Source: Sphagnum magellanicum (taxonomy: Eukaryota; Streptophyta; Sphagnopsida; Sphagnales; Sphagnaceae). From it: a stretch of 64,000 bases of DNA. The DNA lies in assembly GCA_021904315.1 (NCBI GenBank), contig CM038918.1:2805349-2869348 (forward strand). The letters run 5' to 3'. The translations under genes and the position numbers were made by a program. Shown here in pieces: positions 51,401 to 54,400 of this stretch (its first letter is position 1; each line of letters begins with the position of its first letter). Below the pieces are notes generated by a model that saw only the letters and a list, made by a program, of their open reading frames with translations, searched no databases and was not told the origin of the DNA.

Positions 51401-54400
51401 AGACTTGCATTCTCACTGGACAGTGAGATGAAGGAATTGTCAAACAAAAAGTGGAGTAATACACTAGTGACAACAGTGCATGCCTTTTCAGTCTGACAGC
51501 AGAAATTCATAACATTTGCATCATAAGCACCTGATAGAGGGGGATTTTTCTGTTGCTACCCTCTCTTCTGACATCAACGTTCATTTTCTGATGGATATAT
51601 AATGCAGTTTGAGGATTTTGCAAACCATAATGCGTTTCGATTGCTGGCAAAGTACAGTACAACCCATCTTGTGTTCAATGATGACATCCAGGTAGTAAAT
51701 TGTGCAACTTGATTTGAGTTTTGACTCAGAGGGTGTATGGTAGACTTCTAAAATAATCATATGCAACCACATGCATTTTCTTGTTGACCAGATTGTGTTG
51801 ACATAAGCAAAGCCAAGAATGTTTACAATCATTTCAAAGGAGTTCTCAACAGTGATAGTTTACAAAGACTGTTGGAACTAGTGTCATTAGGTCATCATCC
51901 GACTGTCCTATATCACCGTATGTCAAAATTTTACAAGATTGAAATTCAAAATTGTCATGGTATGTAAACTGTTGATTGCTGTTTCCCTCAAAGGAGCCAG
52001 AAATATACAAATTTTCTTACTTGCAGAGGATGACACTATCAGTTTACTTGGTGTTCAGGGTACAGCAGCAGTAGCACTGGCAGCACTCCTTGCAGCATTG
52101 CATATAACAGGAGGCGAGCTTTCAGATCAGAAATATCTGTTTGTTGGGGCTGGTGAGGTATGTGGCGAATTTGTGTCTATCTCTCAGCAAAGATCAGAAG
52201 CTGAAGTTTACCTGTTCTAAAGTCCATAGCTTCCCTGCATGTACTTTGGGAAATGTCTTCTAATTTTTCTAGAACTAGGGCAAGATCCCTGAGTAGCTGA
52301 GGGATAACTGAAGTCTGAGTATTGAAACCTAGTATCAGTGTCAGTGGGAGGTACACAAGTGCATTGTGTTGTATGCAGGCTGGAAGTGGTATTGCCAAAA
52401 TAATGGCACCGGAAATTAGTGGGCACAAAAAGAAATCAGTGGATGAAGCACAGAAGAGAATCTATCTCTTGGACTCAAAGGTAATTATTGCATTGTGTTT
52501 GTATGCAGGCTGGAAGTGGTATTGCTGAAATAGTGGCACTGGAAATTAGTAGACACGAAAAGAAAACAGTGGATGAAGCACGGAAGAGAATCTATCTCTT
52601 GGACTCAAAGGTAATTGTTGTCACATATCTACCATTACATTGTTATCACAAAAGTTTTACCTTCCCCAAGTTTGCAATATCTCCCTGGGTTTGTGGTCTC
52701 AAGGCAAAGTTCAGTAGACACCTGCTTTCTCTGGATCTCTCTTTCTGTGAGGTTAAACCTCCAGATTTATTCCCTATTAGTCTCTTTTCAACTTCTCTAA
52801 TCTTCAATCCGCATGTCTACAGGGACTGGTTACAAAGGCCCGGTATGATTCATTGCAAGAATTCAAGAAACCATATGCGCACGAGCATCCTGCATGCCCT
52901 ACTTTCCTTTCTGCTATCAAGGTATGCCACACCTGGTCTTCTTTTTATGAACTTTCATATTTCTCCTTTCCAAGATACCTTCTCATGGAGACATATGAAG
53001 ATCTTCTCAACAGCCATGGCCTAATGCATTAGATGAATATGTTGGCATGGTGACACTCACAGCACAACTCCCATACACAACAGGGATGATAGCAGACTCT
53101 GAGAATCTGGTGTTTGCCTTTGCACATGACTCTGTGAGCAGGCACTCAAACCTACAGCAATCATTGGGACATCTGGACAGTATGGTGCTTTCACCAAGGA
53201 GGGATTGGAGGAATTGGCCTCTTATCAAGATGTGAGAACTGTTGTTAGGCAAATCTCAGAATTAATGTTAGTTTGCTTTGCACATGTCTTCTGTCATTGC
53301 CCACAAACTCGGACTCACTAGTGTTGTTGTAATGGCTTGTGGGCTGAGCAGCTCAGCAGCTGCAAAGTGATATAACATCTTAACAGTATCTTTCCAGTTC
53401 CTAATTTGAAACCGAATGCAATGACATCACACATGCCTACTGGGTTGGACATGATTTGCAGTTACCGATTGTTTTTGCACTTTCAAATCCAACATCAAAG
53501 TCTGAGTGCACAGCAGAGGAGGCTTTTGAGTACACCAAGGTATGGACAACTTTTCTCCCACTTTTGATCATTTCCTTGTATTTGGTATGTTACTGTTGCC
53601 CTGCAGTTGGGCAGATGAGCTCCTTCTGTGTAAGACAGGTTTCAGTCTGCATTAGACAACACTCACACAAAGCAGAGGAAGTACCTGAAATGTCCCTAGG
53701 AAAGGGGCTCTTAGTTACACCAGCTTCTGCTGGTCTCTCTTAAGTGTTATGCCAACATGATGACTGAGTCTTCCCATTGCATCCCAAAGTGTGACAGAAA
53801 TTCAGGATGCTTATTTTTGTAATGGTTTGATGGATGTCTTGGGCTTATTATTATATTCTTGTCTACACCCACCGTCAGGAGCTGATTAAGTCAATGGCAG
53901 CCAATCACTACTAGTCATAATGAATGTGATGGTCTGACGTGTCATGGGCAACTCTCATGAAGTTATTACCAATCGTTGTCATATTATCTTCAAAATGTTG
54001 TTGTGGAGATTTCTCTACAATCTCATGGATATAGCATCTGCAGGTGTCTTTTTCCTTTCTTACAGCTTGTCAAACATATCTCTTTGTATGCCCACATGTG
54101 CTTGTTAAGTGAAACAGTTTCTGGGGTTTCATTCAGGTATCTGATGTCACACTGTTCAAGCTTTGATTCTCACAAGCAATTTCCAATCTATCTCCATATC
54201 ATAGTCTTCTTCTCTGTCAATCTAGTCATCTGCAATCACTTGTAGCAGAGGTCAAGAACTTGTGTTCTTATCAGGATCGCATTGTGACAGACAAAAGCAA
54301 ATAATGTTTGATTTTTCTGTCTCTGACTGTCTCTTCACCTTGGCTGGGTACTGCCATTTTGTGCTCAATTGTGATGCACATCAAATGTGCTGCAGGGGAA

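Follow-up and report, generated by a model that had tools for sequence, protein, structure and literature searches.

Tandem exon duplications whose copies are used exclusively are well known in animals. In vertebrates, exons 4a and 4b of OGDH have been described as a pair kept exclusive because the second exon has its branch points too close to the first exon's donor (the proposed threshold is about 50 nt); both are expressed, with different sensitivities to calcium (PMC7969005). Unannotated tandem exon duplications have been described in human, fly and worm, and a text search of that paper finds neither "plant" nor "Arabidopsis" (PMC9013439). In plants, mutually exclusive exons have been described in MADS-box genes of spruce (PMC6243048), and for the mutually exclusive exons of Arabidopsis FLM/MAF1 the two isoforms are reported with 88 and 55 translatome reads (PMC3266260). 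Among the open-licence papers listed in a literature search, no description was found of a plant malic enzyme with a duplicated exon arrangement of the kind presented here.

The malic enzyme locus of Sphagnum magellanicum shares features with several of these systems. As with OGDH 4a/4b, the exon duplicated in tandem belongs to an enzyme of core metabolism, but unlike OGDH its upstream copy (copy a) changes without visible constraint and, in a crude scan, the candidate branch point of its downstream copy (copy b) coincides with the donor of copy a. Like FLM/MAF1, it is a plant gene in which two adjacent exons are alternatives for one protein region; FLM/MAF1, however, encodes a transcription factor whose isoforms have reads, whereas the pair described here belongs to an enzyme. 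As in the animal cases of PMC9013439, an exon-like copy of uncertain expression adjoins a known exon, and unlike those cases the malic enzyme pair comes with evidence across several versions that one copy is decaying. The pair resembles exclusive exons in its geometry but shows no sign that selection keeps both copies as protein.

The window, the whole stretch of 64,000 nt that we analysed, contains on its plus strand a gene for a plant NADP-malic enzyme (positions 48401–55403, first ATG to stop). Our exon model, which gives a clean translation, describes one transcript with 18 coding exons, all 17 introns being bordered by GT...AG, and consists of 592 codons plus stop whether copy a or copy b is inserted. 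The b-form protein is 100% identical over 592 amino acids to P0001, the S. magellanicum protein CY35_12G016400, which marks the window as DNA of a peat moss. Pfam places both malic enzyme domains, malic and Malic_M, in the gene product, which is similar over its full length to solved malic enzymes; the best matches are 9xyw, 9e6m and 5ou5, the last of which we take to be the maize enzyme, and every one is named Malic enzyme. Plant homologues were recovered with the gene product in a protein search, and the encoded enzyme probably uses NADP rather than NAD as its cofactor, judging from similarity. In the model, exon 10 (52059–52157, plus strand) ends in ...VGAGE and is followed by the donor GTATGT, and exon 12 occupies 52823–52921 of the same strand. 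Two malic enzyme fragments, P0122 and P0144, bear the species names Escherichia coli and Acinetobacter baumannii and lie on contigs of 546 and 649 nt, respectively; they rank among eukaryote-like hits and are possibly contamination.

Elsewhere in the window, two ORFs on the minus strand (4389–5204) resemble exons of one aquaporin gene, with a Pfam MIP match in both, and the plasma-membrane type is our guess for this gene. Also on the minus strand are the remains of a Copia-type retrotransposon (13299–17909), comprised of a gag (16992–17909; Retrotran_gag_2), a pol piece (14967–15698; SH3_retrovirus) and an ORF (13299–14012) that has no Pfam match and resembles Copia RNase H by eye. An ORF on the plus strand (42934–43299) matches CIA30 with 28.7 bits against a curated cut-off of 24 and may belong, as an exon, to a gene for a complex I assembly factor. 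A tandem array at 63280–63570 can be read with a period of 67 (4.2 copies, 82% matches) or 135 (2.2 copies, 85% matches). An Rfam scan of the 64-kb window gave no match reaching the gathering score.

Exon 11 of the malic enzyme gene is present twice on the plus strand. Copy a (52379–52480), which is probably decaying, and copy b (52509–52610), presumably the working copy, are each 102 nt long, have the same phase and splice borders, and are separated by a spacer of only 28 nt (52481–52508; GTAATTATTGCATTGTGTTTGTATGCAG) that contains the copy a donor, GTAATT, and the copy b acceptor. A first-pass annotation of this DNA had given these coordinates, lengths, phase and borders together with the four junctions 52157–52379, 52480–52823, 52157–52509 and 52610–52823, all of which check out. 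The tandem exon duplication that it proposed is confirmed by Tandem Repeats Finder, which reports an array (52360–52620, plus strand) with a period of 130, 2.0 copies, 91% matches and a score of 443. The two copies share an ungapped repeat of 122 nt at 92%. A chance repeat is rejected by these scores. Beyond the exon, the repeated unit takes in some 20 nt on the upstream side, where there is a single 1-nt difference in length, and about 6 nt on the downstream side. The exon copies stand head to tail with flanking intron. The duplication in this gene is real. Copies a and b differ at nine of 102 positions, eight of the differences being transitions, and in seven amino acids, numbers that agree with the first-pass annotation. 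Its statement that only one substitution is silent needs a slight correction by codon path counting, which gives seven replacements and two silent changes; the GGG/AGA codon pair accounts for one of each.

The geometry of the pair limits the transcripts that can be made. The reading frame is kept with copy a alone or copy b alone, and also when both are skipped, in which case 34 residues are lost. Retention of copy a, spacer and copy b leads to a stop at the 16th codon past copy a, and the earlier statement that keeping the spacer shifts the frame is supported. Direct joining of copy a to copy b would require the excision of a 28-nt intron and would leave both exons in frame. A plant splice-site survey cites 56 bp as the experimentally validated minimum intron length; the survey also mentions that introns of about 30 bp in humans, and even of 10 bp, have been reported, and judges lariat-type removal of such very short stretches unlikely (PMC6310983). 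Because the copies are only 28 nt apart, their joining is very unlikely, in line with what the first-pass annotation had held, and a transcript therefore uses a, or b, or neither. To judge from this spacing, geometry very probably makes the two copies exclusive, and their exclusivity may perhaps be a mere by-product of the short spacer.

Splice sites were scored with a small matrix built from the gene's 16 other sites. The donors of copy a and copy b are equal (both 6.93). The acceptor of copy b scores 15.33, higher than all 16 others, and that of copy a 9.67, higher than 15 of the 16 and lower than that of copy b. The splice sites of copy a look usable, with no visible obstacle to its use, which counts against a dead exon. 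In a simple 70-nt scan for branch-point-like pentamers, copy b has a single candidate, GTAAT at –24, which coincides with the donor of copy a, and copy a has candidates only at –53 and –60; the scan is crude, with eight of the 17 b-form introns, intron 10 included, lacking a full-score pentamer. It suggests that copy b may be better served by branch-point candidates. We can speculate that the branch point of copy b lies on the donor of copy a, which would bring U1 at copy a into competition with U2 at copy b.

The same arrangement is found in other sequences. Eight proteins out of 12 candidates were returned by a 92-residue query that put together the end of exon 10, copy a, the frame of the spacer and the first part of intron 11. 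P0241 (51 amino acids) exactly matches the window's reading of copy a, spacer and start of copy b; it lies on a 3065-nt contig and therefore does not come from a chromosome-sized assembly record. P0242 (68 amino acids; longest contig 181,012 nt) and P0243 (131 amino acids; longest contig 11,977 nt) are diverged, and each runs from the last part of intron 10 through a copy a and the same 15-residue spacer frame into the start of a copy b. P0244, a copy b continuing into intron 11, also has a longest contig of 181,012 nt, which suggests that it shares this contig with P0242. The sources of P0241–P0244 are the collections ncbi, jgi and ena, and for P0244 also lgn, and their near identity to the window points to Sphagnum. 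Metagenomes of 11 Sphagnum species are available at JGI and ENA (PMC9584203), and Sphagnum metagenomes are a likely but unproven origin of the four. P0217, a fragment resembling the Sphagnum fallax paralogue P0006, appears by eye to consist of exon 10, a short retained intron, a single exon 11 and then exon 12; because it shows one exon 11, the P0006-type paralogue seems to be without the duplication. In the window, an ORF containing copy b (52488–53024, plus strand, 178 amino acids) extends from the spacer deep into intron 11, and unspliced copy-b readings of this kind are filed as hypothetical proteins (P0244, P0245). The viral contigs searched gave no match. A genome-contig search matched 313 stretches, 301 of which encode relatives; the best 80 of these 301 all have bacterial titles, and the 221 relatives outside the best 80 may include plant loci.

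The two copies have changed unequally. Between the copies in the window the dN/dS ratio is 0.96 (dN 0.093, dS 0.097). Seven replacements among nine changes fit no constraint (p 0.70), and a ratio of 0.1 is rejected (p 0.002); in this sample of nine changes a ratio of 0.3 is also compatible with the data (p 0.11). A ratio near 1 from nine changes would be the same under decay or divergent selection and cannot separate the two. The direction of change was read against an assumed ancestor, the copy-b form with Ser20. Serine is found at exon residue 20 in three of five copy-b versions (P0128, P0244 and P0245), in all three copy-a versions and in the paralogues P0003–P0005, and the paralogue P0002 has proline. 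At this residue, the Ser of copy a is probably ancestral and the Thr of the window's copy b derived. The description of copy b as family-like in the first-pass annotation is most apt for six of the seven differing residues, residue 20 being the exception.

Read in this way, copy a carries E7K, V9M, L11P, R15G, E17K and R25Q in the window, I5T, E7K, V9M, E17K, R25Q and S33L in P0242, and I5T, E7K, V9M, E17K, V21M and R25Q in P0243, with E7K, V9M, E17K and R25Q common to all three versions. Copy b carries S20T in the window and in P0127 and no change in P0128, P0244 and P0245. Nine distinct replacements over three versions of copy a stand against one over five versions of copy b (two-sided p 0.021), a test that is approximate given the related sequences, the unequal version numbers and the inferred ancestor. 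The ancestral state of V9 is less certain, as paralogues P0002–P0005 have Leu at this position.

Conservation of the exon was assessed among 120 homologues listed of 7995 scored hits, which are mostly close plant relatives. Residue 7 is Glu and residue 5 is Ile in 120 of the 120, and residue 25 is Arg and residue 33 Ser in 118 of the 120; I5T, E7K, R25Q and S33L therefore all alter residues that at least 98% of these homologues share. Residue 11 is Leu in 111 of 120 and never Pro. Four of the nine copy-a changes fall on the nine positions conserved to at least 98%, where random placement would be expected to put about a quarter, and copy a therefore shows no avoidance of conserved positions. 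Glu7 is fixed only among close homologues and not in the wider malic enzyme family: in the motif-bearing fragments among 120 of 302 shorter and more varied hits, residue 7 is Asp in 47, Glu in 43, Asn in 9, Gly in 2, Gln in 2, His in 1 and Lys in 1. An AlphaFold model of P0001, based on an alignment of 37 of the 120 homologues including P0001 itself, was used only for secondary structure (mean pLDDT 74, with block means of 79 for residues 341–350 and 87 for 351–360). The model predicts a helix at residues 342–359, which contains the site of L11P (residue 353). An open frame and splice-compatible acceptor and donor codons are present in all three versions of copy a. With 12 random substitutions, a round figure, the exon would have no stop with a probability of 0.48–0.81, depending on transition weight, and because of this the open frame of the three versions means little. 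Copy b is conserved as protein, and for copy a no constraint was detected in nine changes.

Hints of expression come from the protein searches. With a 141-residue a-form query, 302 proteins matched at E 1e-10, and the listing covers 120 of them. P0127 and P0128 (jgi) match the gene near-exactly, and in both a b-type exon is followed directly by exons 12 and 13; P0127 continues past exon 13 into intron 13, and P0128 through exon 14 into intron 14. Because introns 11 and 12 are gone, we infer that both are transcripts. Both start with Met-Gln, the two residues that the six intron bases just ahead of the exon encode in the window. A b-type exon joined to exon 12 was found in three of 248 fetched proteins (P0001, P0127 and P0128) and copy a joined to exon 12 in none of the 248, from searches clustered at 90%, one of them listing 120 of 302; the copy-a signature occurs among the 248 only in the unspliced P0241, P0242 and P0243. 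The protein database shows one sequence per 90% cluster, and a-forms could hide within b-form clusters. The absence of a spliced a-form is weak evidence because of this clustering and because the a- and b-forms differ by 7 of 592 residues.

The explanation that we favour, and regard as probable, is an old tandem duplication in which copy b works and copy a is spliceable but decaying, mostly skipped or little used. A 130-bp tandem duplication inside the malic enzyme gene would have copied exon 11, with the duplicated unit carrying just enough flanking intron for one acceptor and one donor, and would predate the split of the window sequence from at least one other, probably Sphagnum, lineage. 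The 28-nt gap would hardly allow joining and would lead to transcripts with a, b or neither. Copy b would supply the enzyme exon, and copy a would have kept its splice signals and open frame with protein-level selection gone. Copy a would be mostly skipped, or else used at a low level to give a defective protein, and retention of the spacer after copy a would give an early-stop transcript. The anatomy of the pair, its presence on other contigs and the unequal change of the copies are shown by the sequences, whereas we infer that RNA mostly lacks copy a and that an a-form protein would be poor.

Were the pair functional mutually exclusive exons, both isoforms would be made, and in some tissue or condition the a-form enzyme would handle its cofactor differently or differ in stability. 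The copies are homologous neighbouring exons with equal length and phase and compatible splice sites, and equal length, phase and splice borders with sequence homology are the criteria for mutually exclusive exons named in the title of PMC3228551. Very unlikely joining, the strong copy a acceptor, a copy a frame and splice signals that look intact in all three versions, and the four replacements that these versions share would also be expected of such a pair, but a dN/dS of 0.96, changes on positions conserved to at least 98% (I5T, E7K, R25Q and S33L), L11P inside a predicted helix, the additional version-specific changes of copy a and 0 of 248 fetched proteins with a copy a–exon 12 join in the 90%-clustered database all argue against it, and we consider it unlikely. 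The claim of the first-pass annotation that the exons are built as a mutually exclusive isoform pair is not upheld, given the dN/dS, the further replacements in each version and the 0 of 248 spliced a-products under 90% clustering. Distinctly doubtful is the proposal that an exon for the first Rossmann helix yields two exclusive isoforms and that the copy a donor (GTAATT) doubles as the branch-point region of copy b, with U1/U2 competition.

Very unlikely, in our estimate, is an unproductive-splicing device, in which use of copy a or retention of a, spacer and b would lower the amount of enzyme through nonsense-mediated decay or inactive subunits and so preserve the spliceability of copy a. 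The stop at the 16th codon past copy a on spacer retention is consistent with such a device, although retention of other introns could have the same effect; the Met-Gln start of P0127 and P0128 looks unspliced upstream with introns 11 and 12 removed, but these sequences keep intron 13 or 14 too and look generally incompletely spliced. An assembly artefact, or a duplication private to one plant, is extremely improbable, and nothing was found in its favour: there are 9 differences between the copies over 102 positions, and the check on independent sequences suggested in the first-pass annotation found the arrangement on other contigs in three ORFs (P0241, P0242 and P0243), two of which have their own differences.

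These data carry the warning that equal length, phase and splice sites alone are not proof of a functional exclusive pair. The malic enzyme pair is also a natural substrate for testing the minimum distance between U1 and U2 sites in plants. With copy b working and copy a decaying, as we favour, the case would be a clean plant example of the fate of a tandem exon duplication, in which spacing gives exclusivity at once and one spliceable copy decays.
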